Shown: in pieces, positions 1,569 to 33,211 of the stretch
Layout of the letters: each line of letters opens with the position of its first letter
How positions within the stretch are numbered: position 1 is the first letter of the stretch
IMG/VR virus record: IMGVR_UViG_3300023088_000007
Location: 1-42,167 of that record
DNA: 42,167 bases
Reading direction: 5' to 3' (one strand)
From: a virus
Notes under the pieces: model-generated
Seen by the model: only the letters and a program-made list of their open reading frames with translations
What the model was told of the DNA's origin: nothing
The model's database searches: none
Position numbers and translations under genes: made by a program

Positions 1569-3578
1569 TCAAATGGTTGTAAAAAGGGAACCTTGAATGG
1601 CCGGGGTTGGCGCGATTGCTCCAACTTCGGCCAAAATTTCGTTAGCGATGTGAATATATTTTTCATAATCTATATCTTCCGGTAGTTCGTTCTTATCGGG
1701 CAATTCCATTAGCGGCATTGCTCCATCGCTGTTAGGAACTTTGTTGCCGGAAGTTACATATCGAATTGTTCCCCGCATTTTTGTTGAGTAATACCAACGA
1801 ATAGTCTTGCCTAAATATTTTCCAGATTTGGCAGCGCCCCCGCGAACATTGCGAACCGTAATGAATCTTCTAACATCGTTACAGTTCCGAATTGTTTCTT
1901 CGACCGGCGTTCCCTTCCAAAGAAATCCAATGGCGGCATCGTTACAAATAAGGGTTTCGGGATTCTTTGAAAGAATGGTATCGCCGGATGATCCGCGTTC
2001 GCTGTACGATCCTTTAACCTTTGGTTCATCTTCGCTCTTTTCTTTGATTGCAATGTAGTTGTTCACATCGCGGCTATAGATCGCTTTGTATCGTGTTTCT
2101 TCCGTTTCGAATCCAGTTAACTTTTCCCATTGTTTGATTGTTGTGTTTAGAGTGTCTTCCATAGTAGCGGGACAATTTATGACAACTCCATCTGTATTGG
2201 CCGATATGACTTCAATTCCCGCTGTTTCAATCATTTCGATTAGTTTCAACAAACACAGTTGACCTGAAATTGTGATTTGAATTAGAACATCGGGAGAATA
2301 CACGATAGACCATTTGTTGCCGAATTTGCCAAATAAACCGTTCACTGTGATCTTTAGCGATGAAGCGGTCATTTTATCCCCGGCATGTTTCGCGTCAACA
2401 CGGCGGCGGATTAGGCTCTTGTAAATTTCCAAATAAGCCTTCCCTAAATGTTTTGGATGCAATTCTTGATTGACAACAATCGCCGGGTAATAGCTCACAA
2501 CATCAATATCCCTAAGTTTAAATTCAGCGGTTGACTTGTGAGCTATTGTTTTTTCACTTGAATGCAAACCGCCCATTCCAAAACGATAAACACAATTGCC
2601 GAAGCGAACGCTTAAATTCTGAATAGCTTCTGGCGTTATGATTTCCCCGCTATCTCCAACTTCAAATGGAGTTTCGCGAATTGTCTGAAGAACCGTTTGA
2701 AGCGATGGATAACCAAACGTGATGAATGCCGGGGGAAGGTAAAAGAAATATTGCGAATAATTTTTTGGGCGTTCTGGTTTCTTACCAGTAAGCTTTTTCA
2801 GTTCATGTGAAATTACGGCTTCGGCTATTTGAGCATCTGATTTTGAACGAACATCAATGCCGTATTGAGCAGACAAAGTATAACGAAGTTCAAGTTGAGG
2901 ATAAAGAAACTTTACAACAAGTTCGGTGTTGTCTAAATCGTTCAAACAATAATCAAGAACTTTTTCCTGTTCGGTTTTGGTAAGAACTGCTTCATGCTGA
3001 ATTGGCAAATCCTGTATACGCTTGCAATGAATTCTAGCGGCATATAATTTCAGCGATCCTTCAAGTGGGCAAACTTCGATTAGATCAATGTGATTGTAGG
3101 TAAGCAAGGTAATTTTGAAGTGTTGTTCAATTTGATACGGTAACAGATTTCCAAAAATGATTGCGTTTGAAGCTTGTTTCAAAGCTTTGTTATCGAAGCC
3201 TTCAATTGCAAGACTGACCATTGGAATATCATAAATTTTTGAATTGAATCCAACACAAAGAAAATTCTTTAAGAGCCAATGAAGTTTATCGCGTTCCGGT
3301 ATAACTCCAATGCCTTTATTTTCGAAAACGACATACTTTCCAGAATCACTATGTTTGAAAGCAACAACCCAATAATTTATGTATGATTCAACGTCAAAAA
3401 TCATGAGCGAACCCGGCTTTAGTTGCCGCAATTCATTATCAGTTAAAAACACTCGCTCTTTTACAGAGTATTTGAAATCGAATTGATCTTGAATGTCTTC
3501 AATTTCTTTTTTGGCTGGTAACTTACGAAGAAACGTTTCCTCTTGTGGCGTTAGCATTTTAATATTGAATAGGTTCAT
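1569..3578 (-). CDS. DNA polymerase, family B, with 3'-5' exonuclease
   Basis: A replicative DNA polymerase of 669 residues, compact for family B. The exonuclease motifs are visible: Exo I FDVES (about 61-65), Exo II NSKIYD (about 112-117) and Exo III YCLND (about 210-214). Polymerase motif A is DIDVVSYYP (about 357-365), motif B is KITVNGLFGKFG (about 409-420) and motif C reads SANTDGVV (about 459-466). Motif C carries NTD instead of the usual DTD, a variant I associate with some phage polymerases. No terminal-protein signature is evident. It is the last gene of the leftward operon; its ATG overlaps the stop of the upstream HNH gene (ATGA). It converges on the fibre genes, with no clear terminator between. 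Confidence 0.93.
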   Translation of the reverse strand: MNLFNIKMLTPQEETFLRKLPAKKEIEDIQDQFDFKYSVKERVFLTDNELRQLKPGSLMIFDVESYINYWVVAFKHSDSGKYVVFENKGIGVIPERDKLHWLLKNFLCVGFNSKIYDIPMVSLAIEGFDNKALKQASNAIIFGNLLPYQIEQHFKITLLTYNHIDLIEVCPLEGSLKLYAARIHCKRIQDLPIQHEAVLTKTEQEKVLDYCLNDLDNTELVVKFLYPQLELRYTLSAQYGIDVRSKSDAQIAEAVISHELKKLTGKKPERPKNYSQYFFYLPPAFITFGYPSLQTVLQTIRETPFEVGDSGEIITPEAIQNLSVRFGNCVYRFGMGGLHSSEKTIAHKSTAEFKLRDIDVVSYYPAIVVNQELHPKHLGKAYLEIYKSLIRRRVDAKHAGDKMTASSLKITVNGLFGKFGNKWSIVYSPDVLIQITISGQLCLLKLIEMIETAGIEVISANTDGVVINCPATMEDTLNTTIKQWEKLTGFETEETRYKAIYSRDVNNYIAIKEKSEDEPKVKGSYSERGSSGDTILSKNPETLICNDAAIGFLWKGTPVEETIRNCNDVRRFITVRNVRGGAAKSGKYLGKTIRWYYSTKMRGTIRYVTSGNKVPNSDGAMPLMELPDKNELPEDIDYEKYIHIANEILAEVGAIAPTPAIQGSLFTTI

Positions 3579-3973
3579 GTGGCACGCTCCAAATAAGCAA
3601 TTGCCGCTTCAAAAAATTCTTTGTCTTCTATCGCGGCTAATCGACGATTGCAACTGGCGCATAGAATTCCTCGAACCTTATTTGTTACATGATTGTGATC
3701 AGTGTGCCAACCGCGTTTCTTGCCCGGTTCTGTTTTCTTGCAAATGGCGCAGCAACATCCTTGTTTTTCAAATAGTTCGTTCCACTGTTCGGCGGTTATT
3801 CCGTAAACACATTTTCTTTGCATTGCCTTGAACAGTTCAGGGTTGTTATCTCGCCATTCTTTAGATTTAGCGCGAACGTGTTCGGCATTTTCTTTACGCC
3901 ATTTTTTATGATATTCTTTGCGTGTTAATGGCGGCGGTTTTTCGGGCAATGCTATTGGCTGAATTTCTATCAT
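3575..3973 (-). CDS. HNH endonuclease, endonuclease VII type (copy 1)
   Basis: A 132-residue protein with a basic N-terminal arm (about residues 15-50) and a C-terminal endonuclease VII fold: YGITAEQW, zinc pair CAIC, catalytic HTDHNH, then VRGILCASCN with the second zinc pair and the conserved Asn. T4 endonuclease VII resolves branched DNA; stand-alone phage copies often behave as homing endonucleases. I chose the ATG at 3973 because it overlaps the stop of the clamp-like gene as ATGA; an ATG at 3985 is also in frame. The 3' end overlaps the polymerase start, again as ATGA. Four related genes lie in this window, which favours a mobile, homing-type role over a single housekeeping resolvase. 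Confidence 0.88.
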   Translation of the reverse strand: MIEIQPIALPEKPPPLTRKEYHKKWRKENAEHVRAKSKEWRDNNPELFKAMQRKCVYGITAEQWNELFEKQGCCCAICKKTEPGKKRGWHTDHNHVTNKVRGILCASCNRRLAAIEDKEFFEAAIAYLERAT

Positions 3974-4953
3974 AGCCGCTCGCATCCAATACAGCCGCGC
4001 ACATTCGGGCCGAAGAAGTAAACCAAACGTTTTGATACGTTGAAATCAATCTTGTCAATCAATCCTGAAAGCAATTGCAACGATTCGATTGTAAAGGAAA
4101 TTCCAATTGGTAATCCTTCGCAAAGGTTGATTGCCCCATCTTTTGTGTAGTTGTCTGTACAAATTCCTTCATCGGTGAAGTACAACCGCCCATTGCGCGA
4201 GAATGGCGCTAGGCGCTCAATGGCTTCAAAGAACCCCAACGGCAACGGGATAGGATTGCTAGGCAGGGTTAAATAGGCGGGCAGATCGGGGAAGTTCGGA
4301 TCGCGCTGCAAGGCGGTTTTGATCCATGCCCCGTCTAGGAAGTACGCCGTTAGGCTATCGCCGTCAATCCCAAGAGAGTAAAGCGATTTACGTCGCTGTT
4401 TATTGACGGCGGAGATGAACAGCTTAGGCACAATTGGCCCGTCTAGGAGTTGAAGGCCATGCCAAGCTTCTAGTATCACATCCCCGTTGCTGCCTACAAT
4501 GGATCCGCCCCGGAGTTGAACGCTGGATTGAAGAACTGTTTTGGCTCGCTCTGAAACGACTTCGCCAACCCGTCTTAATGCCAATTCAAATTCCATTGTG
4601 ATTGAAAAAGGATGAAGATTTGGGAAAATTGAAGGAATGTCTACTTGATTAATGCACGGAACAGTTGCTTGAAAATTTCCCGAACGAACGCTTAGCTCGT
4701 TATTTGTGATCATTGTTAGATTGACGGCTTCGGGACATTTCTTCAAAGCGTCAATTAGCTTTTGAGTATTTGGGCAAGCTTCTATTTCCTCTTGAATTGC
4801 TATTCCAGCGGAGAGCGGCCCGCCCATTGCAACCAATTTTCCTGCGAACATTCTGCAATGAACATCGAAGGCGTTGATGGCTCGCTTCGGTTGAACACTC
4901 GCAACAAATTGCAGCGCGGCGAGCAACGAATTTTCAGGTTGTTTCTTCGGCAT
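3970..4953 (-). CDS. Candidate DNA polymerase sliding clamp
   Basis: A 327-residue protein of no certain family. It lies just upstream of the family B polymerase, separated only by an HNH gene. The N-terminal part contains SVRSGNFQATVPCI, a pattern resembling phage processivity factors related to the bacterial beta clamp; the rest alternates beta-type strands (SLYSLGIDGDSLTAYF, GRLYFTDEGICTDNY). I chose the ATG at 4953 (MPKKQ) because the longer frame from 5109 would overlap the zinc-protein gene across its whole length. The central part (about 4200-4560) uses CTA and other codons that are scarce in neighbouring genes. Clamp function is inferred from position and fold-like pattern; alternatives include another replisome accessory factor. 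Confidence 0.5.
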   Translation of the reverse strand: MPKKQPENSLLAALQFVASVQPKRAINAFDVHCRMFAGKLVAMGGPLSAGIAIQEEIEACPNTQKLIDALKKCPEAVNLTMITNNELSVRSGNFQATVPCINQVDIPSIFPNLHPFSITMEFELALRRVGEVVSERAKTVLQSSVQLRGGSIVGSNGDVILEAWHGLQLLDGPIVPKLFISAVNKQRRKSLYSLGIDGDSLTAYFLDGAWIKTALQRDPNFPDLPAYLTLPSNPIPLPLGFFEAIERLAPFSRNGRLYFTDEGICTDNYTKDGAINLCEGLPIGISFTIESLQLLSGLIDKIDFNVSKRLVYFFGPNVRGCIGCERL

Positions 4954-5134
4954 TGAATCCTTCGGCTTTCGCTTTTTCAATTCGTTCAAAGTGGAACCAA
5001 TCAACCCAACGAACATTATGGTTGTGCGCGGAAAATCCAAAAGGGTCGAGCGGCACTTCGGAATGAAGACATTTCGCACCGATGGCCGCTCGACACGTTG
5101 GGCAAACAACTTTCAATGGAAAATTCGTGTTCAT
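4934..5134 (-). CDS. Small zinc-binding phage protein
   Basis: A 66-residue protein with the pattern VCPTCRAAIGAKC followed by HSEV and HNHNVRW. The CPxC-x5-GxxC...H spacing matches a short zinc-binding domain widespread in phage and actinobacterial proteins, usually of unknown role and probably nucleic-acid binding. It begins with an ATGA overlap on the gene at 5131-5436 and overlaps the clamp-like gene by 20 bases, so it is co-translated with replication proteins. Zinc ligation is inferred from residue spacing. Confidence 0.7.
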   Translation of the reverse strand: MNTNFPLKVVCPTCRAAIGAKCLHSEVPLDPFGFSAHNHNVRWVDWFHFERIEKAKAEGFNAEETT

Positions 5135-5447: not shown

Positions 5448-5744
5448 TCAAAATGGTATTTGATCGTTGTCTTCGTAATATTCACACCCATCGACTATAA
5501 CGCAAGCTGGCGGACGGATGCCAAACTTATTACAAATTTCTTCTTCTTTTTTCCAATGCTCGCAAGTGATACAGGTTGCGAACCAATCAGATCGATGACC
5601 GATATGGTTCAAAAGTTTTGCAAAGAATTCTTGCATGGGATATGGAACTCGCATTTCAAGGCGTCCATTTTGTTTCTTGACGCCGCGAATTTGAATCAAT
5701 CGCTCTTGCGGATCGGTCACCGGCTTGTAAGGCTCTTTGATCAC
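5448..5744 (-). CDS. Small cysteine-rich phage protein
   Basis: A 98-residue protein with a C-terminal cysteine cluster: CITCEHW, EEICNKFG, PPACVIVDGCEYY and final DQIPF. The arrangement CxxC...C...C...C suggests a small zinc-binding fold common in phage early regions. The start is a GTG at 5744 that overlaps the stop of the HNH gene as GTGA, so translation depends on ribosomes arriving from upstream. No function is recognised. Confidence 0.7.
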   Translation of the reverse strand: MIKEPYKPVTDPQERLIQIRGVKKQNGRLEMRVPYPMQEFFAKLLNHIGHRSDWFATCITCEHWKKEEEICNKFGIRPPACVIVDGCEYYEDNDQIPF

Positions 5745-6178
5745 ACTATGCGCCTTTTCAAATAGTCAATTGCAGATTGAAGAAGTTCGATGTTGTCTTT
5801 GAATCCGCCCAAAGCAATGTTACAACGATTGCAGACAACCCCGCGAACCTTTCCTGTAATATGGCAATGATCGATATGCCAGCCCCAACGACCGCCCGGT
5901 TCAGTTGTCTTACAAATTGCACAACAAGAACCTTGCGCGATGAACATTTCTTCTTTTTGTTCAGGTGTAATTCCATATTTTGATTTCAGATTGGAACGCA
6001 TCATTTGAAGGCGCGTTCGCGGATAGCGGAGCTTTCTCGATTCTTTTACTTTAACTGAATTATTATTGCGCCACGCATTAGCTTGCTGTTTTTTCTTTTC
6101 AATGTTGCACAAATAATGACGCCGCGACTTAGCCTTCTGATCGCGTTTCTTTATAGGTAATTGGTTTGTCCAACTCAT
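5741..6178 (-). CDS. HNH endonuclease, endonuclease VII type (copy 2)
   Basis: A 145-residue protein. A Lys/Arg-rich N-terminus (KKRDQKAKSRRHY, KKKQQANAWRNN) leads into the endonuclease VII core: KYGITPEQKEEM, CAICKTTEPGG, catalytic HIDHCH, KVRGVVCNRCN, and the closing helix AIDYLKRR. Both zinc pairs, the Asp-His-x-His and the Asn are intact, so the enzyme should be active. It sits exactly between the helicase and a small gene, joined upstream by ATGA and downstream by GTGA overlaps. This is the layout expected if a free-standing homing gene entered an operon without breaking translational coupling. Confidence 0.9.
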   Translation of the reverse strand: MSWTNQLPIKKRDQKAKSRRHYLCNIEKKKQQANAWRNNNSVKVKESRKLRYPRTRLQMMRSNLKSKYGITPEQKEEMFIAQGSCCAICKTTEPGGRWGWHIDHCHITGKVRGVVCNRCNIALGGFKDNIELLQSAIDYLKRRIV

Positions 6179-7770
6179 GCAGATTCCTTGAAAATTCTTT
6201 TGATTACTTCGGGATATTTCTTATTAACTATTACAGAAATTGTTTTTGGAACAGCAAGCCTACTTACCCACAAGAGTGCTTCATCTACAGTTGGCGGCGC
6301 GGCGTCTGTGTTCATTGCTCTTTTCCACCATGCGCGGGCAATGTGACCGGCGCGGCCCGAATGTTCAAGACATACAACTTCACTAAACGCTCTTGCTCCG
6401 CAAACATAATTCACTTTCAAAATTCCAACACCGTTCTTTTCAATCTTGCTATACAGAGCGCGTTGAACTTCGAAATCTTGTATTTCAGGAACTTCTGTTC
6501 TAATAATTTCTTCAGTCCCCGCCGAAGCTTCGATATGAATTTGAAAAGGAAATTCAAAACCACACACATGACAAACTTTCGCGTTTGCATGGCAATAGGT
6601 TCCGCACTGATCGCAAACGCGAATTGGAGCAACACCGGGGGCGGCGCTTCCTCTTGCTTTTGGTATTACAGGATCGTTGATTGGTCCTAACCGTTGAACG
6701 TTGCGAGCAAAATCTAATCCTAAACAATTTGTTTTTCCTTCAAACGGGCGTCCGCCCCGGCCATATTTTTGGACGTGCAAGCCGGTTGACATTGTAGGAG
6801 CTAGATCGATGATCAAATCAATCGGCGGGTGATCCTGTCCTGTTGTGAATACACCCTTGTTCACTAAATTTCTAATCTTGCCAAGCTTGTAATCTCTAAT
6901 AATTGCATCGCGTTTTGCACCGCTCATTTTTGAATGAACAGCTTCGCAAGGAATCCCAAAATTGCGAAACATTGCCGCAACGTGTTCAGCGTGTTTTATT
7001 CCACTTGCAAATGTTAACCAGCAATCGCGATCAGAACCTAATTCAATTGATTCTTTACAAGCAAGATAAGTTATATCTTGAACGTCAACAGCGGCTTCCA
7101 ATTGTTTCAAATTGAAATCCCCGGCTTGAATTCCAACTTTCGAAACATCCAATTGTGTGTTTGTTCGTTTTGGAATAATCATTGCCATAAAGCCGTTATC
7201 AATAAACCAATTGAACCATTGCATCGTTGTCATATCAACAGCAATATCGGTAAAAATTCCAATATCTACAAGCGAGCCTTGCCCGGTTCTATAGGGAGTT
7301 GCGGTAAACCCAATAACTATCAAATTTGGATTCACAAGAAGTTGCTTGGCAATTATAGTTGAATACATGGAACCATCTTGCCCATTCATCAAATGCGCTT
7401 CATCGATGATGAAAATATCAAACCGGCCAAGCGCTTCAATACTCTTTACAACGCTGGCAACACCGCCAAAAATAATTGGCATTGCGGTATCGCGCTGTTT
7501 CAATCCAGCGCTAAAAATTCCATACGGCGCTGAAGGCCAAATTTCAGCTAGCTTTCCAGAATTCTGCGTCAACAATTCCTTAACATGAGTCATTGCCAAA
7601 ATTCGAAGTTCCGGCCATTGGGAAAGCATCTTATGAATGAACGAACCGATTACCAAACTTTTGCCGGTTCCTGTTGGCATACATACTAAAGGATGTCGCT
7701 TTTGCGTTTGATAAAGAAACGCGAGCAACGCATTTTCGGCTTGTGTTTGGTAGTTTCGTAAAGTAATCAT
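6175..7770 (-). CDS. Superfamily 2 DNA helicase with zinc finger
   Basis: A 531-residue DEAH-type helicase. The Q-like region LRNYQTQA is followed by Walker A MPTGTGKS (about 31-38), Walker B DEAH (about 123-126), motif III TATPYR (about 156-161) and motif VI QKYGRGGR (about 334-341). A four-cysteine zinc module (CDQC...CHVC, about 386-403) follows the second RecA domain. The architecture fits phage replication or recombination helicases that unwind forked or branched DNA. It overlaps the gene upstream by ATGA and the HNH gene downstream by ATGA. No start ambiguity is seen. The exact role (replicative or recombinational) cannot be told from sequence. Confidence 0.92.
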   Translation of the reverse strand: MITLRNYQTQAENALLAFLYQTQKRHPLVCMPTGTGKSLVIGSFIHKMLSQWPELRILAMTHVKELLTQNSGKLAEIWPSAPYGIFSAGLKQRDTAMPIIFGGVASVVKSIEALGRFDIFIIDEAHLMNGQDGSMYSTIIAKQLLVNPNLIVIGFTATPYRTGQGSLVDIGIFTDIAVDMTTMQWFNWFIDNGFMAMIIPKRTNTQLDVSKVGIQAGDFNLKQLEAAVDVQDITYLACKESIELGSDRDCWLTFASGIKHAEHVAAMFRNFGIPCEAVHSKMSGAKRDAIIRDYKLGKIRNLVNKGVFTTGQDHPPIDLIIDLAPTMSTGLHVQKYGRGGRPFEGKTNCLGLDFARNVQRLGPINDPVIPKARGSAAPGVAPIRVCDQCGTYCHANAKVCHVCGFEFPFQIHIEASAGTEEIIRTEVPEIQDFEVQRALYSKIEKNGVGILKVNYVCGARAFSEVVCLEHSGRAGHIARAWWKRAMNTDAAPPTVDEALLWVSRLAVPKTISVIVNKKYPEVIKRIFKESA

Positions 7771-7958
7771 CCGGCCAATGCTTTTTCCATTTTCTTTTGA
7801 ATGGTTTTGGCAAACGCTCTCACCATCAAAGCCGTTGTTACATCTTCGTTATTAGCATCCTTGTCAAACATCGCTATTTGATTTTCTGCATCGTCCACTG
7901 CTTGCTTAACAAGTTCGTTAATCAGCGTGCATTCTTCTTTGAGCAATTCAATTTGCAT
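7767..7958 (-). CDS. Small helical protein of unknown function
   Basis: A 63-residue acidic, mostly helical protein (LLKEECTLINELVKQAV, then AFAKTIQKKMEKALAG). A good ribosome site, GAAAGGA, lies six bases before its ATG, and its stop overlaps the helicase start as ATGA. It may be a partner or regulator translated with the helicase; there is no recognisable domain. Confidence 0.65.
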   Translation of the reverse strand: MQIELLKEECTLINELVKQAVDDAENQIAMFDKDANNEDVTTALMVRAFAKTIQKKMEKALAG

Positions 7959-7971
7959 GGCGGTCCTTTCG

Positions 7972-8403
7972 TTAGTTCAGTTGAAATTGTTGAAGATAAG
8001 CAATTGCGTTACCAAGCAAAACAACATTGTCTTCGGCTTTGCCTAGTAGCAAATTGCAACGCGAACAAAGTAGTCCGCGAATGTTTCCCGTTGCATGATC
8101 ATGATCAACAAACCAATTCTTAGCACGTCCGCCCGGCGAATTCACATAACAAATCGCGCAAGAATTATGTTGATACCTACACATGAATTCGTATTCTTCT
8201 TGAGTTATTCCATAATTTCTTTTTATTGCACATTTTCGATGGGAACGCGCCAACACTTCAGGATGAGTTATAGCGCGAAGTTTGTTATAAGCAGACGATT
8301 TGGCGTTTCGTTCTGCTTTATGTTTCTCATAACATTTCTTACTCGCAATTTTTGCAGCGGCTTTAACTTCTTCCGGCGTTTTCTTACTTCTGGATGGGGG
8401 CAT
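7972..8403 (-). CDS. HNH endonuclease, endonuclease VII type (copy 3)
   Basis: A 143-residue protein with a basic N-terminal arm (KKTPEEVKAAAKIASKK) and an endonuclease VII core: RNYGITQEEYEF, CAICYVNSPGGR, catalytic FVDHDH, NIRGLLCSRCN and the closing AIAYLQQF. All metal and catalytic residues are present. The spacing between the first zinc pair and the catalytic site is slightly longer than in its siblings. It overlaps the end of the Cas4-like gene by 20 bases, with AAAGGA ahead of the ATG, and ends 13 bases before the next gene. This is the one intact leftward copy whose junctions are not 4-base overlaps. Confidence 0.9.
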   Translation of the reverse strand: MPPSRSKKTPEEVKAAAKIASKKCYEKHKAERNAKSSAYNKLRAITHPEVLARSHRKCAIKRNYGITQEEYEFMCRYQHNSCAICYVNSPGGRAKNWFVDHDHATGNIRGLLCSRCNLLLGKAEDNVVLLGNAIAYLQQFQLN

Positions 8404-9250
8404 GATGATCGCATCCTTTTGGTATGAAATCTTTTGGAATTATGCTGTTGTGAAACGTACAAAACCAATCGGCATTTTCAATCGGTCTGGAATAAGAGCA
8501 GCTTCTACAATTAACGTCGCAAGCAACTCCGTCAAAACAAATTGGCTGCATTTTGCACATCCCGCAAAGATAGTAATTTCGTTTTTCGCTAATCTTCTTC
8601 GGCGGCTCTTTCGCATCGAAGATTACAAACTGAGCCTTTTTGTAGGCATCTTCGGCAACATTCATATCAAGCGGAACCAATTCGAAATACCAATCAGAAT
8701 CATTTTTGTTTTCGCAAACGTATAAGATATTGTTGAACCTTAATCCTCTTCCATAAACGCTGTTTTGAATAAAGTGTTGTTCTTTTGTTTGACGCATTCC
8801 CTTTTTGTCAAGATCATTAAACGGCGAACCTGTCCCTGTTGTTTTGCATTCCAATCCGGTTGGTTCGGTGATTCCCCAAGATGGAGCAATAAAAACGCCG
8901 TCAACTGATCCCCCGAAATGCCCTTGAAGATCGCTAAATTTTAGTTGAAATCCGTTTTCGTCTAAACCATCGATGAATTGAAAACCAATTTTTTTCAACC
9001 AACTGCGAACACGAATTTCTAAACCATGTCCAACGCCAAACAATCTTAACATTCTTCCGGAATGTGTTTCGCGATGCATCCAACGAAAATGATAGAAAAG
9101 ATAGCGTAAGCATTCGTTACCTACAACAGATGCGCCAAGGTGCGAACGATAACCTTCGATGTTCGCGTTTTCAATTTCAGTATCGACGGCCTTCAACATT
9201 GCGTCTGCTATTTCGCGCAACATTTCTGGATTAGTCCAATCAACAATCAT
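8384..9250 (-). CDS. Cas4-like PD-(D/E)XK exonuclease
   Basis: A 288-residue nuclease of the Cas4/RecB family. The core reads GHGLE (about 74-78), HFGGSVDGVF with the catalytic Asp (about 117), GLECKT with the catalytic Glu-x-Lys (about 134-136) and a Q...Y helix EQHFIQNSVY. Cysteines occur at about 47 (NECLRYLFY) and in a C-terminal cluster (about 229, 232, 238, 244, 248, 251), consistent with an iron-sulfur cluster as in Cas4 and AddB-type enzymes. Such phage enzymes resect DNA ends for recombination; here it is next to the DUF669-like and Sak4-like genes. The Fe-S cluster is inferred, and which cysteines bind is uncertain. Confidence 0.85.
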   Translation of the reverse strand: MIVDWTNPEMLREIADAMLKAVDTEIENANIEGYRSHLGASVVGNECLRYLFYHFRWMHRETHSGRMLRLFGVGHGLEIRVRSWLKKIGFQFIDGLDENGFQLKFSDLQGHFGGSVDGVFIAPSWGITEPTGLECKTTGTGSPFNDLDKKGMRQTKEQHFIQNSVYGRGLRFNNILYVCENKNDSDWYFELVPLDMNVAEDAYKKAQFVIFDAKEPPKKISEKRNYYLCGMCKMQPICFDGVACDVNCRSCSYSRPIENADWFCTFHNSIIPKDFIPKGCDHHAPIQK

Positions 9251-9300
9251 GTTTTCACCAAAAAGTTGGGACAGAGTTGAAGACTAAAACTCTGCCCCTG

Positions 9301-9337
9301 TACGCTTGAAGAATTTCACCTTACGGTGACAAGCGTA
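9301..9337 (-). other. Nested hairpin between ssDNA-binding and Cas4-like genes
   Basis: An 8-bp perfect stem (9301-9308 with 9330-9337, TACGCTTG) encloses a second 5-bp stem (9316-9320 with 9325-9329). Read on the coding strand, the inner loop is GTAA, a GNRA tetraloop. It begins 5 bases after the stop of the ssDNA-binding gene. No T-tract follows directly on the leftward strand, so it is more likely an mRNA-stabilising or processing element, or a weak attenuator, than a standard terminator. Confidence 0.55.
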
Positions 9338-9341
9338 GTTT

Positions 9342-10001
9342 TCACTTCACCCAAGGGGGCGTTGCGCTCGCAGCCGGGGCCGCGAAGCCAGAAGCCCAAG
9401 GCGGCGCTCCAGCGGCGGGGGGAGCGGGTTGCCCGCCCCAAGGCGGTGCGGCGGCTCCAGCGGGCGGCTGTGTTCCTGCACCCCATGTTGCTGCACCCGG
9501 ATCAGCGGGCGGCGCTTGTGCGGCGGGCGCTCCCCATCCCGGTTGCGCGGGCGCTCCCTGTTGCGGTGCGGGTTGATTTCCGCCCTTGTTGGGGTTGATT
9601 GGCAGTGATCCATCGGGGCATTTGATTTGCTTCACTTCTGAATACTTCGGGTTATCCGTTTGCGGCCCGATAGTGCAAATCAATTTTCCGCCAAGCATTT
9701 GTTCACTTGTTGCAAGTTGCGGGCGTCCAATTGCGAACGCATACGCCGCTAATTGCTGAAGCGCAATACGTTTTGCAACTTCGCTTGGGTTGTAAATGTT
9801 GAGGCGATCAATTTGAGTCATACCCTTTAGATCGCCGTCAACGCAAGTCAAGTGAATTGCAAGATACCCGGCCCCCGGATTATCTTTCACTTGCTGTGGT
9901 TCAACTTTGGTAATTTCGAGCCTGTAATCCCCAAGCGGAAAACAAATGCTTCCCCCTTGTGTTGGATCGTATTGGAAGGCATCGAAGTTTAGAACTGTCA
10001 T
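9342..10001 (-). CDS. ssDNA-binding-like protein, DUF669 family
   Basis: A protein of 219 residues. The N-terminal 130 or so residues match the DUF669 pattern seen in phage recombination clusters: FPLGDYRLEITK, GYLAIHLTCVDGDLKGM, DRLNIYNPSEVAKRIALQQL, LGGKLICTIG. The remaining 90 or so are a disordered Pro/Ala/Gly/Gln linker ending PPWVK, much as in SSB tails but without the usual acidic tip. The start at 10001 has a good ribosome site (AAGGGAG). The frame continues upstream without a stop into the broken HNH gene, so an HNH fusion is possible. It probably coats ssDNA for the Sak4 and Cas4-like proteins; that is inference from family and neighbours. Confidence 0.8.
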   Translation of the reverse strand: MTVLNFDAFQYDPTQGGSICFPLGDYRLEITKVEPQQVKDNPGAGYLAIHLTCVDGDLKGMTQIDRLNIYNPSEVAKRIALQQLAAYAFAIGRPQLATSEQMLGGKLICTIGPQTDNPKYSEVKQIKCPDGSLPINPNKGGNQPAPQQGAPAQPGWGAPAAQAPPADPGAATWGAGTQPPAGAAAPPWGGQPAPPAAGAPPWASGFAAPAASATPPWVK

Positions 10002-10434
10002 GTTTACTCCCTTCAAATTTAGGTAGAAAATCGCGGCGCATAAAGTAAGTGGATTGTCTTTTAATGCGCCCAACGCTGCATTGCAATTGAAACACAAAAT
10101 TCCGCGAACTTTGTGCGTGCTGTGACAATGATCAACATTCCATCGTCTTTTACCTCCGGGTTCTTTTGCGCCGCAAATCGCGCATCGTTGACCTTGTGAT
10201 GCAAAAATTTTATCGAACTCTTCAATTGTCATTCCATTAAAGTTTCTGCAATTGGTATCTGCGAAACTTTAATGGATCACGTTCAATATGAAACCTTCTG
10301 TTTTCAATTGAACGGCGCTTCAGTCTTTCTGCATTAACGTCATAGTAAAACTTTTGGTAATCTCGTTTAGATTCCCAAATCTCAACTTCAATTTCAGTTC
10401 CGATCAAAGGCGCGTTGCTTTCAATTTCAATCAT
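10002..10434 (-). pseudogene. HNH endonuclease, endonuclease VII type (copy 4), frame-broken and fused to next gene
   Basis: The N-terminal half (65 residues, MIEIESNAPLIG to RRYQLQKL) stops at 10237. The C-terminal half continues in another frame: NGMTIEEFDKIF, CAICGAKEPGG, catalytic NVDHCH, KVRGILCFNCN. Removing one T from the run at 10239-10241 restores a single frame (QKL-NGMTIEEF) matching its four siblings. The catalytic residues are intact. Its own stop codon is missing: the frame runs through GVN into the ATG of the ssDNA-binding gene. The 5' end overlaps the Sak4 stop as ATGA. The break may be mutation, sequencing error, or a stop-restart (an ATG at 10232 lies within 5 bases of the stop). 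Confidence 0.75.
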
Positions 10435-11096
10435 GCGGCGGCTTTGATAAACAACTTTGTTAAGTTTGGTTCTTCAAGTTCATTCAAATTGCCGCCGCGA
10501 TCCTTCGCTGTCCACCAATCGGTATCATGTGTGTGAAATGCTTGGTAAACAACACCGGTTTCTGTTCGACCATGATGATGATGAAGAACCAAATCCCAAA
10601 AGTAAGGCAATGCGCTCATCAACTTTTCGGAAGGAATAACCGGGCAAGCTTTTTTGCCCAATCCGAATTCAACATATTGTTCCCAACAAATCAAAACAAC
10701 ATGGCGTCCCTTGCTATCGCGGAACGCTCGAATCAATTCATAAACAGAATCTTGCATTGCACCGTAAGCTTTGCGAGGGTCTTTTGTTTTTGTTTTTTCT
10801 TCTGCAAGAATCACTTGTGCCATTTCTGTTAGCGAATCAAGGAACAGAGTTTGAATGTGTCTTGCTTCGGCGCTTTTCATGAACCATGTAAAAGCTTCTT
10901 TCAGGTTCGCATAAGTGTTAATTGGAATATACGGAATGTTATCTCGCTTTAGCGATAGCAAACCGTTTTCGCCGGAAAAAATAAACGGTCCCGGCGCTGT
11001 GATCGCAAGGCGAGTCTTACCAACTCCAGATGGGCCATATACCAAAGTTTTGATTCCATCTTTGGCAGTTATTTTGCTTGTGCTGAAGACTTGCAA
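10431..11096 (-). CDS. Sak4-like RecA-fold ATPase (single-strand annealing)
   Basis: A 221-residue P-loop ATPase of the phage AAA_24 / Sak4 type. Walker A is VYGPSGVGKTRLA, about 20 residues in; Walker B is TLFLDSLTEM; HVVLICWEQ provides a sensor-like strand. Sak4 proteins are shortened RecA-like proteins that assist single-strand annealing, usually with an SSB; the DUF669-like gene lies just downstream, past the broken HNH gene. I chose TTG at 11096 because AAAGGGGG lies a few bases upstream; an earlier TTG at 11129 is less likely, and no ATG occurs before the Walker motif. The gene overlaps its upstream neighbour by 28 bases. Confidence 0.85.
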   Translation of the reverse strand: MQVFSTSKITAKDGIKTLVYGPSGVGKTRLAITAPGPFIFSGENGLLSLKRDNIPYIPINTYANLKEAFTWFMKSAEARHIQTLFLDSLTEMAQVILAEEKTKTKDPRKAYGAMQDSVYELIRAFRDSKGRHVVLICWEQYVEFGLGKKACPVIPSEKLMSALPYFWDLVLHHHHGRTETGVVYQAFHTHDTDWWTAKDRGGNLNELEEPNLTKLFIKAAA

Positions 11097-11299
11097 GGTT
11101 CCCCCTTTGGAGTAAGAACAATTGCACAAATACCGGCTTCAATGCCTGCCATTAAATCGCGGTACTCAATAGCACGTTGATGGCAATTGCTGCCTTTGAA
11201 AATGGCGCAACCGTCAAGTTCTTTTTTGCCTTGCACTCTTTTCCAAATCAGTACTGCCCATTCATCCGGGGCCGGATTTTGTTTCACTTCATATTCCAT
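11069..11299 (-). CDS. Small protein of unknown function
   Basis: A 76-residue protein (MEYEVKQNPAPDEWAVLIWK). It has three cysteines (DGCAIF, SNCHQR, EPCKSS) and a mixed alpha/beta composition. It overlaps both neighbours, the 11289-11708 gene by 11 bases and the Sak4 gene by 28, so it belongs to the same operon. No family is recognised. Confidence 0.6.
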   Translation of the reverse strand: MEYEVKQNPAPDEWAVLIWKRVQGKKELDGCAIFKGSNCHQRAIEYRDLMAGIEAGICAIVLTPKGEPCKSSAQAK

Positions 11300-11708
11300 T
11301 TCTGACTTCCTTTGGGGGAACGATTTCCAAACTTGGCTTTGCGGGTTTTATGGTCAAGCAACCATCGAAAAGTTTTTGGGTTTGCGAGTCTGCGTTTTTG
11401 TAGGCAGTTTCAGAAAGTTTCGGTTCCCATTTAACAAGAACATTTGCAACTTCGGGTAGCATAATTGCAATTAGAGCATTAACTTGCCCTTCTTTGTTGT
11501 TTAACTTGTAATCTAATTTTTTGGTTGCCTTTAATGCATAGCCGTTTGCAATTTCAATTGTTTCTGATCCCGCATCTTTATCAGCGCTGAACAGTTCCTT
11601 CACAAGTTCATCGCGCAATTTCGATTCAGCTTCCTTTGCTCTTTCAAGCATTTGCTTCATTTCAAACCAAACCGTTAGCTTGGCATATTGAGCGGCTGTT
11701 AGAGGCAT
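11289..11708 (-). CDS. Conserved phage protein near Sak4, first gene of replication operon
   Basis: A protein of 139 residues starting MPLTAAQYAKLTVWFEMKQML, with a long charged helix followed by IEIANGYALKATKKLDYKLN. Similar proteins often neighbour Sak4-like ATPases and Cas4-like nucleases in phages; function is unknown. The ATG at 11708 lies 7 bases from the -10 box of the leftward promoter, so the message is probably leaderless from this start. A longer frame begins with GTG at 11771, but that would start upstream of the promoter. It heads the operon running to the polymerase. Confidence 0.7.
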   Translation of the reverse strand: MPLTAAQYAKLTVWFEMKQMLERAKEAESKLRDELVKELFSADKDAGSETIEIANGYALKATKKLDYKLNNKEGQVNALIAIMLPEVANVLVKWEPKLSETAYKNADSQTQKLFDGCLTIKPAKPSLEIVPPKEVRNGI

Positions 11709-11715
11709 ACGGGCA

Positions 11716-11744
11716 AGCCTAGACGCCGAGGCCAAATCTGTCAA
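11716..11744 (-). promoter_or_regulatory. Leftward promoter of the replication operon (leaderless)
   Basis: On the leftward strand TTGACA (11739-11744) and TAGGCT (11716-11721) are separated by 17 bases, an excellent sigma70-type match. Only 7 bases lie between the -10 box and the ATG at 11708, which puts the expected transcription start at or one base before the initiation codon. Confidence 0.8.
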
Positions 11745-11752
11745 GAAAATTC

Positions 11753-11788
11753 TTTGCACAAAATTTTGCACTTGATTTTGCAGCGGGC
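11753..11788. promoter_or_regulatory. Three tandem 12-bp repeats, candidate operator
   Basis: TTTGCA occurs at 11753, 11765 and 11777, exactly 12 bases apart: TTTGCACAAAAT, TTTGCACTTGAT, TTTGCAGCGGGC. The array lies between the two divergent promoters and overlaps the rightward -35 box. Regular tandem repeats of about one helical turn are typical for ribbon-helix-helix repressors, and such a gene candidate starts at 11810. Confidence 0.65.
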
Positions 11789-11801
11789 ATGGTGCTAGGG
11801 T
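11772..11801 (+). promoter_or_regulatory. Rightward promoter of the RHH-HNH-primase operon (leaderless)
   Basis: TTGATT (11772-11777) and TAGGGT (11796-11801) are 18 bases apart; TGC directly before the -10 makes it an extended -10. The ATG at 11810 follows 8 bases later, so the transcript probably starts within two bases of the initiation codon. The third operator repeat overlaps its -35 box. Confidence 0.65.
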
Positions 11802-11809
11802 CGCATCTT

Positions 11810-11998
11810 ATGAAAAAACAGCCTTCGCCCGCATCATTGCGGCTTGACTTGCCGCCCGATGAAAATCTCATTCTCGAACAACTTCAATTAGCTTTGAAGG
11901 AACATTTGAAAGTCAATTATATTTCAAAGGCTTCAACTATTCGGTTTCTGATCCGAAACGGCAGCATACCTACAACTGAGCACACACAAAGCCGTTAA
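11810..11998 (+). CDS. Ribbon-helix-helix-like small DNA-binding protein
   Basis: A protein of 62 residues. The segment SLRLDLPPDENLILEQLQLALKE (a strand, then a helix) and SKASTIRFLIRNGS (second helix) fits the ribbon-helix-helix pattern of Arc/CopG-type regulators, which bind DNA as dimers on short tandem operators. It is the first gene after a divergent promoter pair that contains three 12-bp repeats, so autoregulation and control of the replication operon are plausible. ATG at 11810 is chosen over one at 11789, which lies upstream of the promoter -10. The fold assignment rests on pattern only. Confidence 0.55.
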   Translation: MKKQPSPASLRLDLPPDENLILEQLQLALKEHLKVNYISKASTIRFLIRNGSIPTTEHTQSR

Positions 11999-12011
11999 AG
12001 GATCGCTGAAA

Positions 12012-12506
12012 ATGCCTTGGACTAACGTTTTAACGAACGAAGATATTGCATTTGCGAAAAAATTGCAAAAACGTGCCCGCGAACGCAAATGGTACGCTGA
12101 TAACGCCGAAGCTGAAAAAGCGCGGCGCATAACTTATCGTTCGAATAATCCGGAAAAAGTTAAAGCCGCTTATAAAAAATGGTATGAAGCTAATCCAGAA
12201 AAGGCTCGCAAAGCTACAAACGATTGGTTAGCGAATAACAATGGAAAAAATAAAAATCGAACGTATAACATCAAATCAAAATATGGACTTACAAATGAAC
12301 AATGGACTGATTTATTTGTTCGTCAGGCTTGTTGCTGTGCAATTTGTGGAGTACATGAAACTAAGGTTTGGCACACAGACCATTGCCACAAAACGAATAA
12401 AGTTCGTGGAATATTGTGTGCAAGTTGCAATCCGGGGTTAGGAAGATTCAAAGATTCCATTGAAATAATGAAAGCGGCAATTGCTTATTTGGAGCGCATA
12501 AAATGA
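12012..12506 (+). CDS. HNH endonuclease, endonuclease VII type (copy 5)
   Basis: At 164 residues, the longest of the five. Its extended basic arm contains two spaced NPEK repeats (NNPEKVKAAYKKW, ANPEKARKATNDW), followed by KYGLTNEQWTDLF, CAICGVHETKVW, catalytic HTDHCH, KVRGILCASCN and AIAYLERIK. The loop between the first zinc pair and the active site is a few residues shorter than in the other copies. AAGGA lies upstream of the ATG, 13 bases after the RHH-like gene; the stop overlaps the primase start as ATGA. It is the only copy on the rightward strand, again next to a replication gene. Confidence 0.9.
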   Translation: MPWTNVLTNEDIAFAKKLQKRARERKWYADNAEAEKARRITYRSNNPEKVKAAYKKWYEANPEKARKATNDWLANNNGKNKNRTYNIKSKYGLTNEQWTDLFVRQACCCAICGVHETKVWHTDHCHKTNKVRGILCASCNPGLGRFKDSIEIMKAAIAYLERIK

Positions 12507-14806
12507 ATAATCTTTTGTGCGAACTTAAAAAATATCCAAATTTTGTTGTCTGTTACACCTTGGACAAAATACCATTGAATCCAGTAAATGGGGAACGAGC
12601 GGCGGTTAACGATTCTTCAACTTGGGGAACGTTTGAAATTGCATCGGCTTGCCTTGCTAAAGATTCACGGCTAACGTTGGGGTTCGTGTTGACTCCGAAC
12701 GACCCATACGTTTGTGTTGATCTGGATACCTACAAAACAACCGATCCAACAATCATTCAACGCCACAAAGAAATCTACGAAGCTTTGAATTCATATTCAG
12801 AGCTATCGCCGCATGGCGGCGTTCACATTTGGGTTAAAGGGAAGTTGAATGCTGGCAAAAAACTTTCCAAAGAATTCATTGAAGTCTATCCGTTTTCCCG
12901 TTACATAACCATAACAGGTGACGTTGTAAACCCGGCTCCGATTGTCGAACGACAAAACGAATTAGAAGCTTTGGTTGGGCATATTGAAACTGTTGTTGCC
13001 TCAAGTTGGGTTGGCGCGGCGCAAACGAAGACAGATGAAGAAATTTGCAAAATGGCCGCTGAAGCAAGCAACGGCAATTTATTTATGCGGCTATGGTATG
13101 GAGATTGGGCCGGAATGAATTACCCAAGCCAAAGCGAAGGCGATTTAGCATTTCTAAATATCGTTGCGTTTTACACAGACAACAAAGAACAAGTTGCGCG
13201 AATCTATTTCAACTCGCCATTGTTCCAGAATTCACCAAAGCGCAAACGCAAGGCTAGACCCGATTATTTGTTTCATGAAAAATATGGACTGATCACTAAG
13301 GCTTTTGATCAAAAGAATTACTTCCCTGAATTAGAAGCGATGGTTAAGGCTCATGTTGACGCTAAGGTTACTGAACAGCTTGCAACACCTATCCTAAAAG
13401 ATTTTGATATTAAAGATTCAATTCGCGAATCACTTCCGCAATTCATCAAAGAATCCTTGAATGAATTTTCTTTCGATGAACTTCCCCCCGGATTATTGGG
13501 CGATATTGCAGTTTTCATTTATCAAAATGCTGTTCGCCCCGTTAAAGAAATTGCAATCGCCGGGGCTATTGCTTATCTTGCTGGAATTGCCGGTAAAGCT
13601 TACAACATTTCGCGAACAGGCTTAAATCATTACATCGCTATATTGGCCCCAACGGCGGGCGGCAAGGAAGGCGCTGCCAGTGGAATGGAAATGCTAACCA
13701 ATGCAGTTCTTGAACTGTTGCCCGCTTTCGAACAATTCATCGGACCCGCTGAAATCGCAAGCCCGCAAGCTTTAATCAAACATCTTTCCGTTTCTTCTCC
13801 ATGCTTCTATTCGCACAAAGGCGAAATTGGATTTTGGATGCAAAAGTTAACATCGAAGTATGCGAAGGCTAACGAAACAGCACTTCGCGGTTTGCTGTTG
13901 GATTTGTATACCAAATCAGGTTATGGACAGGTGGTTAGAGGATCAATCTATTCTGACAAAACAAAAGACGTTCATGCAATTAAGGCTCCATCTTTCACTT
14001 TGATTGGCGATGCAACTCCGGATACATTTTATCGTGCATTGGATGAAGAAAATATCGAAGAAGGCTTGGTTGCGCGATTCACAGTTGTTGAAGCATCCGG
14101 GGATCGGGTTCCGCATAATGAATTGCATGGACAAATTAAGCCCGATAAAAAAATGACTCACATTATCGCGGGGATCGCAAGGCGAGCGCTACAACTTGCA
14201 CAAATGAACAATGTAATTAACATTGACGAAACCCCAGAAGCACACGAAGAACACATGCGGTTCAGTGAACAATGTTACGAAATCACTTTGAAGAATAGGG
14301 AATCAGCCGAAGGCAAGTTATATTCGCGGGCGCATCTTCGCCTGTTGCGGCTCGCTGGATTGATTGCTGTAGGTATCAATCCCGACAATCCTGTTATGAC
14401 CCTTGAATGTGTTCAATGGGCGAAGCGTTTTATTGTGTACGGAATTTCTTGCGTTGTTACTAGATTTGAAACGGGGCGGGTTGGGGATGTGAATTATTCA
14501 ATTGAACAGCGTATGGCAATAATGAACGTGTTGAAGCGTTACATAAAAGAAGGATACAAACCTGCGTATGGCAAAACATATCAGATTGATGAAGCGATGT
14601 ATAACGCCAAGATCACAACCAATAAGTACATTCAAGCAAATGTAATTCATCATTCAGCGTTTCGGAAAGATCACCATTCTAATCAAGCGTTCAAACAAAT
14701 GATTCAAGAGTACGTTGACAATGGGATTCTTGAACGGATTGATCTTTCTCGAATAAAAGACTCGCCCCGGCGTGGAATCGCCTATTACGTTCGGGACGTG
14801 TTCTGA
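12503..14806 (+). CDS. Primase-polymerase / helicase fusion
   Basis: A 767-residue replication protein. The N-terminal domain shows archaeo-eukaryotic primase motifs: VCVDLD (Asp about 73 and 75), SPHGGVHIW (about 102-110) and SRYITITGD (about 132-140). A middle segment, LWYGDWAGMNYPSQSEGD, resembles the linker domain of NrS-1-type primase-polymerases. The C-terminal half is a DUF3987-like helicase ATPase with a P-loop variant APTAGGKEG (about 382-390), where the usual Ser/Thr after Lys is Glu, and a likely Walker B region near FTLIGDATPD. It would prime and open DNA for the family B polymerase of the divergent operon. It starts by ATGA overlap with the HNH gene. Confidence 0.85.
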   Translation: MNNLLCELKKYPNFVVCYTLDKIPLNPVNGERAAVNDSSTWGTFEIASACLAKDSRLTLGFVLTPNDPYVCVDLDTYKTTDPTIIQRHKEIYEALNSYSELSPHGGVHIWVKGKLNAGKKLSKEFIEVYPFSRYITITGDVVNPAPIVERQNELEALVGHIETVVASSWVGAAQTKTDEEICKMAAEASNGNLFMRLWYGDWAGMNYPSQSEGDLAFLNIVAFYTDNKEQVARIYFNSPLFQNSPKRKRKARPDYLFHEKYGLITKAFDQKNYFPELEAMVKAHVDAKVTEQLATPILKDFDIKDSIRESLPQFIKESLNEFSFDELPPGLLGDIAVFIYQNAVRPVKEIAIAGAIAYLAGIAGKAYNISRTGLNHYIAILAPTAGGKEGAASGMEMLTNAVLELLPAFEQFIGPAEIASPQALIKHLSVSSPCFYSHKGEIGFWMQKLTSKYAKANETALRGLLLDLYTKSGYGQVVRGSIYSDKTKDVHAIKAPSFTLIGDATPDTFYRALDEENIEEGLVARFTVVEASGDRVPHNELHGQIKPDKKMTHIIAGIARRALQLAQMNNVINIDETPEAHEEHMRFSEQCYEITLKNRESAEGKLYSRAHLRLLRLAGLIAVGINPDNPVMTLECVQWAKRFIVYGISCVVTRFETGRVGDVNYSIEQRMAIMNVLKRYIKEGYKPAYGKTYQIDEAMYNAKITTNKYIQANVIHHSAFRKDHHSNQAFKQMIQEYVDNGILERIDLSRIKDSPRRGIAYYVRDVF

Positions 14807-29455: not shown

Positions 29456-29516
29456 GCATTTCGGCGGTGTTGAAGTTGGATCGAAAGCAAATTATCGAAA
29501 GGTAGGAATTGCAATT

Positions 29517-30530: not shown

Positions 30531-30555
30531 ATCATCCTCTAGTTGAGGAAAATTT

Positions 30556-30579: not shown

Positions 30580-30604
30580 TTCAGTATTCAATGAGGAATT
30601 AACA

Positions 30605-30964: not shown

Positions 30965-30987
30965 TCGAACGCGAAGGATTGGGCCAA

Positions 30988-31917: not shown

Positions 31918-31929
31918 AAGGGGGTTAAC

Positions 31930-32037
31930 ATGGCTCCTGATAATGAAACAAGATTGATTGGCGCAATTTGCGGCGTTCTGGATAAGCTTGCTTCATTGCT
32001 TGCAGTTGCCGCAGAAAAGTTGAAGAAAGAAGAGTGA
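31930..32037 (+). CDS. Tiny helical protein (35 residues)
   Basis: The ATG at 31930, after AAAGGGGGTTAAC, opens MAPDNETRLIGAICGVLDKL and ends AEKLKKEE. It is an amphipathic helix. Its stop overlaps the next gene's GTG start (GTGA), so it probably serves coupling or a small assembly role. Not long enough to classify. Confidence 0.5.
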   Translation: MAPDNETRLIGAICGVLDKLASLLAVAAEKLKKEE

Positions 32038-32615
32038 ACCCAACAATCACATTGACGGAAGATGGCGACGGCGAACGCTTCATAAAAGAAGCAATGGGAA
32101 CGCTAGAAAACGCCAAAGTTTATGTTGGGATTCCTGAAGCCGAAACAAACCGCGAAAGTCAAAAAGAAGAAGTAACAAACGCGGGCCTTCTTTTCATTCA
32201 TACCAACGGTTCCCCTATTCGGCACATTCCAGCTAGGCCAGTAATCGAACCAAGCATTGAAGCAAATCACGAACCGATTGAACAAGGGTTACACGCAACA
32301 GCCGATTACGTTCTGGACGGCAAAAAAGCAGAAGCTAACCAAATGTTGAAAAAGGTTGGAACACTTGGGGCAAATGGCGCGAAGAAATGGTTTACTGATC
32401 CAAGAAACGGTTGGCGGCAAAATTCGCCGGAAACAATTCGGCGTAAGCTTGCCAAACTAACAGGTAAACGGCGGCGCAAAGCTTTAGGAGTTTTGAATTC
32501 TGTTGATGAATTGATGCCGCTTGTTGGAACAACAGCATTGGATGAAATTAATACTCCGCTCATTGATACCGGGCAAATGCGGAGAGCAATTACTTGGGTG
32601 ACAGAAGTTTTATGA
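32034..32615 (+). CDS. Neck/tail completion protein, Mu gpG-like
   Basis: A 193-residue protein from GTG at 32034. The central passage NAGLLFIHTNGSPIRHIPAR, followed by PVIEPSIEANHE, and the end DTGQMRRAITWVTEVL match the phage virion morphogenesis (gpG) and HK97 gp10-like pattern. The C-terminal half is basic and helical (PETIRRKLAKLTGKRRRK). Members join head and tail. It is coupled upstream by GTGA and downstream to the GIY-YIG gene by ATGA. Confidence 0.75.
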   Translation: MNPTITLTEDGDGERFIKEAMGTLENAKVYVGIPEAETNRESQKEEVTNAGLLFIHTNGSPIRHIPARPVIEPSIEANHEPIEQGLHATADYVLDGKKAEANQMLKKVGTLGANGAKKWFTDPRNGWRQNSPETIRRKLAKLTGKRRRKALGVLNSVDELMPLVGTTALDEINTPLIDTGQMRRAITWVTEVL

Positions 32616-33211
32616 TTGTCTATTTAGCAAAAAACACGGTTAATGGAAAGTGCTACGTTGGTTGCACTTCATTGCCGCTTGCGAAAAGAAGGCAACAACA
32701 TTGCGGTTGGAAGCGCAAAGAAAATCTTACTTTTCAAAACGCAATAAAGAAGTACGGAACAATTGCATTTGAATGGGAAGTTATTGAAGTTTGCTCTAGT
32801 AAAGAACACATGATGGAACGCGAAAAATTTTGGATCAAAGAATTTAGTACCGTCGTTCCTAACGGTTATAATATGACGTTTGGTGGAGAAGGTGGAAAAG
32901 TTTGTTCAGAAGCAATTGAGCAAATGCGGGTTAAAAAGTTAGGAAAAAAGGCTTCTGAAGAAACAAAAATTAAAATGAGTAAGTCTCGCGTCGGAAAGAA
33001 AATGTCAGCTGAATTTTGCGAAGCTGTTCGCAAAAGAGTTACGGGATCAAAACATTCTGAAAAAACCAGAAAGAAAATTGGAGATTTACAACGCGGTCAA
33101 AAAAGAGAACCGCGAAGCGAAGAAACCAAAAGAAAAATTTCCGTCGCGCATAAAGGTATGTTCAAGCCAATTCCTTCTTTCTGTATAGATAGGATTGGCG
33201 AATTATGCTAG
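32612..33211 (+). CDS. GIY-YIG homing endonuclease
   Basis: A 199-residue free-standing endonuclease. The N-terminal GIY-YIG domain reads IVYLAKNTVNGKCYVGCTS, with Arg and Glu positions in AKRRQQHC and MMEREKFWIKEF and the Asn-rich end NGYNMTFGGEGG. The C-terminal part has three NUMOD3-like DNA-binding repeats (SEETKIKMSKSRVGK, SEKTRKKIGDLQRG, SEETKRKISVAHKG). Such enzymes cut a cognate allele lacking the gene and spread by repair. It sits precisely between two neck genes, overlapping upstream by ATGA and downstream by 7 bases. Base composition is more AT-rich than its neighbours, as usual for homing genes. Confidence 0.93.
   Translation: MIVYLAKNTVNGKCYVGCTSLPLAKRRQQHCGWKRKENLTFQNAIKKYGTIAFEWEVIEVCSSKEHMMEREKFWIKEFSTVVPNGYNMTFGGEGGKVCSEAIEQMRVKKLGKKASEETKIKMSKSRVGKKMSAEFCEAVRKRVTGSKHSEKTRKKIGDLQRGQKREPRSEETKRKISVAHKGMFKPIPSFCIDRIGELC

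Follow-up and report, generated by a model that had tools for sequence, protein, structure and literature searches.

Six putative homing endonuclease genes at gene junctions of a contractile-tail phage contig

Why would a phage contig of this size carry six free-standing endonuclease genes, five of them of one type and close together? The stretch of DNA analyzed here, referred to as the window, is a single virus record of 42,167 bases (IMG/VR IMGVR_UViG_3300023088_000007). It comes from a contractile-tail phage, with terminase, portal, head maturation protease, neck, sheath, tape-measure-like and Dit-like genes on the + strand and an early module divergent from these structural genes. We propose that the six genes are very probably homing endonuclease genes spread by intronless homing, five being HNH genes with an endonuclease VII (EndoVII) motif of the F-CphI type and one a GIY-YIG/NUMOD3 gene, all with putative cleavage activity. 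Genes of this kind are already known; what is unusual is their density, caught here in a natural population.

The endonuclease genes and their neighbors

Scanning the window with the Endonuclease_7 profile (PF02945) returned exactly five matches, all above the curated cut-off and spanning 8.9 kb, and a GIY-YIG scan returned one; the general HNH model had no match in the window. This confirmed a sequence-only reading, which had named five EndoVII-type HNH genes and one GIY-YIG gene, and whose coordinates hold for all except the fourth HNH gene (10002–10434), which is no open frame. That the HNH genes adjoin replication genes and the GIY-YIG gene lies between neck genes was also borne out. HNH1 (3575–3973, − strand; PF02945 1.9e-20) lies between the genes for the DNA polymerase processivity factor (3970–5109, −; phrog_947 3.6e-36) and DNA polymerase (1569–3578, −; phrog_1252 1.6e-193), with an ATGA overlap at both ends. 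HNH2 (5741–6178, −; PF02945 1.7e-25) separates the DNA helicase gene (6175–7770, −; phrog_16 3e-81) from a small gene (5448–5744), with ATGA upstream and GTGA downstream. HNH3 (7972–8403, −; PF02945 2.5e-23), at the junction of a Cas4-domain exonuclease (8384–9250, −; phrog_1990 8e-81) and the 7767 gene, shares 20 nt with the 3' end of the exonuclease gene. HNH4 stands between genes for a Sak4-like annealing protein (10431–11129, −; phrog_124 4e-44) and a protein resembling single-stranded DNA-binding protein (SSB). HNH5 (12012–12506, +; PF02945 2.2e-20) follows a small + strand gene (11789–11998) and shares an ATGA overlap with the primase gene (12503–14806, +; phrog_3022 6.5e-173). The GIY-YIG gene (32612–33211, +; PF01541 1.1e-10) occupies the neck/head junction and also encodes NUMOD3 (PF07460 1.2e-8), so that a GIY-YIG domain, a NUMOD DNA-binding motif and optional insertion, the marks of a GIY-YIG homing endonuclease, are all present.

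CxxC, DHxH, R and CxxCN are invariant across six aligned HNH sequences. The earlier motif summary (CAIC, DH-x-H, RGxLC-x2-CN) was slightly loose, since HNH2 has RGVVC. The motif is C-terminal, with the PF02945 match running from residue 57–86 to near the end of proteins of 136–164 amino acids. Profile matches to the structures of Hpy99I and T4 EndoVII (PDB 3fc3 and 1e7d) cover the core only, and PADLOC returned only weak restriction-enzyme and homing-endonuclease models.

Occupied and empty alleles among relatives

A near-identity search of phage records found no match for the window, and we therefore drew relatives from IMG/VR. From six scans, with early and neck proteins as queries, we used 14 distinct contigs of the early region and 12 of the neck region, metagenomic assemblies labeled L003, L006 and so on. 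The window, L004 and L020 appear to be one phage and are not independent; L022 is a near copy of L006 that covers HNH3 only, and L010 a near copy of L009 that covers HNH5 only.

Across the 14 early-region contigs the order of early genes is constant and each HNH gene is optional. HNH1 is present in the window, L004, L006, L009 and part of L020, and absent from L012, L015 and L016. HNH2 is present in the window, L004, L020 and L008, and absent from L006, L022 and L009–L012, while HNH3 is found in the window, L004, L020, L003, L006, L022 and L008 and missing from L009–L012. HNH4 occurs in the window, L004, L020 and L003, and in diverged form in L015 (absent: L006, L022, L008–L012), and HNH5 in the window, L004, L020, L003, L009 and L010 (absent: L006, L022, L008, L012). 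Counted by contig, the window has HNH1, 2, 3, 4 (broken) and 5; L006 has HNH1 and 3, L009 HNH1 and 5, L008 HNH2 and 3, L015 one relative of HNH4, and L012 and L016 none. Because the outlying relatives L013, L014 and L016 have no HNH at the junctions covered, and the cultured phage Pavpe01, with its early genes in this order, likewise lacks HNH genes at these sites, at least HNH1, 2, 3 and 5 are derived insertions. The 49-kb relative L015 carries one copy and three more distant 45–47-kb relatives none, so that five copies are a heavy load for this group.

The comparison with empty junctions that the sequence-only reading had called for resolved the sites lacking each HNH to the base, and all five HNH sites and the GIY-YIG site combine optional presence between conserved genes with an empty allele. 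At the empty HNH1 site of L012, the end of the processivity factor gene and the start of the polymerase gene meet in a single ATGA overlap, CTATGAACC; the occupied site reads CTATGATAG ... GCCACATGAACC, with ATGA flanking a clean insert on both sides. The empty GIY-YIG site is present in L042–L046 and reads TTTTATGATTGACG in L043 and L044; TTTTATGA is kept in the occupied site, where the head gene gains a new start with a 7-base overlap. HNH2 replaces about 20 bases: the empty site of L006 and L009, TTTTAACAATGACAATCAAAG, is arranged as TAA-CA-ATG, and the occupied allele has a new helicase tail ending in GCATGA, a GTG start and two new 4-base overlaps. At empty HNH5 sites (L006, L012, L013, L015) a short spacer precedes a primase that begins M-x-x-x-ELAA, and the occupied allele has the primase start MNNLLCELKK and a new ATGA. 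The C-terminal exonuclease codons differ between HNH3-occupied and empty alleles, all eight empty alleles ending in (D/S)AILxxC..H.PIQ and all occupied contigs reading DFIPKGCDHHAPIQK. The empty HNH4 allele has a 30-base spacer carrying its own ribosome-binding site. Neither uniform vertical divergence of five genes nor imprecise junctions were found, which supports the earlier view of free-standing mobile endonucleases at different sites.

Does insertion re-create translational coupling, as had also been proposed? The 4-base ATGA or GTGA contacts are there, on both sides of HNH1 and HNH2, upstream of HNH4 and the GIY-YIG gene, and downstream of HNH5. HNH1 and the GIY-YIG gene keep the split ATGA, and the overlaps at HNH2 (both sides), HNH4 (upstream) and HNH5 (downstream) are new and replace spacers. 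The proposal does not extend to HNH3, with its 20-nt overlap, or to HNH4, which has no stop, and such overlaps are not enriched in the family. In the window they were counted by hand at 7 of the 12 endonuclease junctions and at about 10 of the 39 remaining ones (Fisher p = 0.076); at homologous HNH loci elsewhere the figures are 7/60 against 20/127 (p = 0.5), and on these latter counts we rejected the idea that 4-base overlaps characterize the family. By themselves the overlaps do not clearly exceed background, whereas the presence and absence of the genes, and the tracts described below, do. Coupling of the inserted genes to their neighbors may nevertheless occur.

Other inserts were seen in the same regions. 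In L047, another insert, about 200 nt long (4438–4644), takes the place that the GIY-YIG gene has at the neck/head junction of the window, so this junction may be a repeated target. In L044 that junction lacks a copy, and a diverged GIY-YIG gene (32% identical) lies elsewhere (11156–11611). L015 has a DNA methyltransferase-like open reading frame (ORF) at the Cas4/helicase junction near the HNH3 site (10861–11676), and the HNH2 junction of L012 contains other small ORFs.

Identical tracts, homing and its alternatives

Footprints of flank co-conversion, seen as 100% identical tracts in a divergent background, mark HNH3, HNH5 and HNH1, and are not independently seen for HNH2, HNH4 or the GIY-YIG gene. 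The window and L006 are about 80% identical through the Cas4 and helicase genes, save for 778 consecutive identical bases (7783–8560; also identical in L022) that hold HNH3 plus 157–189 nt on each side. At 18% divergence, 778 identical bases in a row would arise by chance with a negligible probability, about 10^-67. A 1,221-nt tract around HNH5 (11389–12609) is identical to L003, L009 and L010 and drops off sharply on both sides. At HNH1, a 2,130-nt tract (1846–3975) identical to L009 starts at the insertion point and runs into the DNA polymerase gene; in L006 it reaches 4842. The four longest identical tracts shared with divergent partners all hold an HNH gene (p = 0.033, random placement). 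A literature search on gene conversion in viral populations found nothing relevant.

These data are consistent with the following scheme. In a co-infected cell, the endonuclease would cleave the DNA of a related phage within conserved sequence, either at the empty junction or next to it. Resection and repair off the occupied genome would then carry over the endonuclease gene with its flanking DNA, from a few hundred to about 2,000 bases. Inserts would either interrupt the target (HNH1, GIY-YIG) or bring in recoded flanking codons (HNH2, HNH3, HNH5), leaving the occupied allele uncut. Entry at gene junctions would keep the neighbors intact and allow the newcomer to be translated from their operon. 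Cleavage, the positions of the targets and immunity by recoding are all predicted here from sequence comparison.

Several observations weigh against homing. Ordinary recombination is common in this population, and primase, helicase and Sak4 contain identical tracts of about 305–656 nt that hold no HNH. The statistical support from the tracts is modest. For HNH2 there is no independent tract, since the alleles that carry it (window, L004, L020, L008) hardly differ in this region. In metagenomic assemblies, moreover, identical 400-nt genes are places where misjoining can occur. The HNH genes might then be passengers of homologous recombination between related mosaic phages, their nuclease irrelevant to the transfer. 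The HNH-free tracts in the same genomes fit that explanation, as does L003, which resembles a mosaic of window-type and L009-type segments. We nevertheless consider it quite unlikely, given that the longest tracts all carry an HNH, that the HNH3 tract barely exceeds the gene in a continuous background of about 80% identity, that one family occupies five unrelated junctions with a GIY-YIG gene in the same role, and that the catalytic residues are conserved. Chimeric assembly of co-occurring strains could in principle produce both the presence/absence pattern and the tracts, since assembly graphs join at long identical genes, and L008 switches backbone type inside the HNH3 tract. However, L006 and L022, from different metagenomes, have one mismatch over 6,974 nt and hold HNH3 between the same divergent-type flanks, and L009 and L010 likewise agree across HNH5, which makes chimeras a very improbable source of the pattern.

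The genes could also serve the phage itself. Relatives are labeled 'endonuclease VII' in PHROGs and phage records, and the catalytic motif family is the same, as would befit true EndoVII-type Holliday-junction resolvases acting in recombination or packaging. A resolvase like T4 EndoVII would have an N-terminal motif (PMC6083498), similarity over its whole length and a single copy; here the motif is C-terminal, the structure match is partial, and the five non-orthologous copies are dispensable, with none in the L012 and L016 contigs or in the three 45–47-kb relatives. The window also has a VRR-NUC nuclease gene (19231–19644), which is another candidate for the resolvase of the phage, and we regard this role for the HNH genes as highly improbable. 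Alternatively, they may be co-opted phage functions, with marker exclusion of competitor genomes as the selected benefit and spread as a by-product. Free-standing T4 endonucleases are known to bring about marker exclusion (SegF and SegG papers, cited in PMC6083498), and the HNH4 core has a ratio of nonsynonymous to synonymous substitution (dN/dS) of 0.115 between L003 and L015 (with synonymous sites saturated), although selection for homing would give the same value. The patchy distribution of the genes, and the broken copy in the genome that carries most of them, suggest no steady benefit, and marker exclusion can go together with homing and does not compete with it as an explanation; as the selected function it appears unlikely.

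Homing by such genes has precedents. On the basis of F-CphI, ORF177 of cyanophage S-PM2, proteins whose EndoVII motif is C-terminal have been proposed to form a family of homing endonucleases (PMC6083498). Like the window genes, F-CphI is encoded by a free-standing phage gene adjoining an essential one and has a C-terminal CxxC-DHxH-R-CxxCN motif. It differs in cutting intronless psbA, in collaborative homing with a group I intron, whereas no intron is seen at the window sites, which bring five copies into one small genome beside replication genes. The seg (GIY-YIG) and mob (HNH) genes of T4 (PMC2988022) similarly lie between essential genes, vary among relatives and co-convert their flanks. 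Their ORFs overlap the upstream gene (mobE by UAAUGA; segC, segF, mobA and mobC by 11–24 nt), and low-level translational coupling was proposed for mobE. The HNH subfamily of the window is different, its overlaps also reach the downstream gene, and the contig is of about 42 kb as against a T4-size genome. Phage homing endonuclease genes (HEGs) are also found near essential genes, at exchange boundaries and with frameshifted alleles (PMC10448857). As far as sequence can tell, the six genes of the window match this picture. The 'HEG islands' of ICP1 share with the window many such genes near essential ones, frameshifted alleles and positions at the edges of exchanged blocks, but belong to the T5orf172 and IPA-HNH families, as opposed to the EndoVII type, and to a larger phage. 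T4 EndoVII and Hpy99I, which share the EndoVII catalytic motif by profile match, are a resolvase and a restriction enzyme, and the match to them is limited to the core.

F-CphI is the characterized example behind the EndoVII-motif homing family, and well over 1,000 phage records carry similar 'endonuclease VII' genes, a label that need not signify a resolvase. For each of six endonucleases, the present locus offers both an occupied and an empty allele from a single interbreeding population, together with a short candidate target. This makes it possible to test homing itself, the choice of target, whether recoding confers immunity and how operon translation is affected.

Relationships among the HNH genes and the stopless HNH4 frame

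The sequence-only reading had regarded the five HNH genes as one family that radiated inside one genome. Their cores are 41–63% identical and their arms 10–39%. In a tree of the window HNHs and 63 IMG/VR homologues, based on a short alignment in which most forks stay open, HNH1 and HNH5 are sisters (support 97/90), and radiation within the genome stands for this pair only; HNH3 groups with outside sequences (99/77). HNH4 pairs with its L015 counterpart, the position of HNH2 is not settled, and the approximately unbiased (AU) test does not reject the five as one clade (p = 0.39). A motif, W/Y-x-N-P/A-E-x-K/R, recurs in the arms every 14–15 residues or so (31 counts, overlapping matches included, versus 0.9 in shuffles). 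Since it is limited, in one to three copies, to HNH1, HNH4 and HNH5 (3800–3973, 10237–10434 and 12012–12270), we did not take it as a defining feature; the arms may differ in length by repeat number.

HNH4 is split in the window. Its arm (10237–10434, −) starts at the ATGA shared with Sak4 and runs for 65 codons to CTT TAA, a stop brought into frame by an extra A at 10237/10238. The catalytic core (10005–10232, −; PF02945 2e-20) lies in a different frame and has no stop before the downstream SSB-like (DUF669) gene, forming one ORF with it (9342–10232; phrog_6015 SSB 1.8e-24). Within that frame the SSB-like gene (9342–10001, −) has its own GGGAG and ATG start, and it is a separate gene in relatives with the empty site. 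Over 3.6 kb (7319–10910), the sole difference between L003 and the window is the missing A, and in L003 the frame is open for 363 amino acids through arm, YG motif, core and SSB. In the much more distant L015, a core 73% identical in the same place is also stopless, in a 383-residue frame. The extra A is present in L004 and L020 as well. The simplest reading is that the stopless HNH-SSB gene is older and that its window allele was broken recently.

We also considered programmed +1 frameshifting at CUU UAA, a sequence that resembles the RF2 site, and rejected it as unnecessary, as L003 reads through in frame. An ATG at 10232 could allow re-initiation on the HNH4 core, giving a truncated HNH-SSB of 296 amino acids.

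Among about 70 distinct IMG/VR HNHs, four are stopless and run in frame into the downstream gene, with three unrelated partners: SSB (L003, L015), a DNA methyltransferase (L105/L106, 441-residue ORF) and a tail protein (L122, 923-residue ORF). L105/L106 and L122 have possible ribosome-binding sites and GTG or TTG starts inside the last HNH codons, and unfused relatives, the tail protein of phage BDU-MI-1 and the methylase of phage XX1924, are annotated with a start at or beside this internal start. A scan for more HNH-SSB fusions returned only the already known contigs and unrelated HNHs, and a literature search on such fusions found nothing relevant. It is possible, if doubtful, that these genes form a class of stopless homing endonuclease genes, in which the HNH frame runs into a phage gene that has its own ribosome-binding site and start within the last HNH codons, both a putative fusion and the free neighbor are made, and the selfish gene, tied to an essential one, is kept by selection. 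The low dN/dS of the HNH4 core would fit such selection. SSB, methylase or tail genes can show up as fusions in phage genomes.

The SSB-like protein itself has a long Pro/Ala/Gly/Trp-rich tail with repeated APPWG-like units (window 9342–9600), and the same tail is found in L015.

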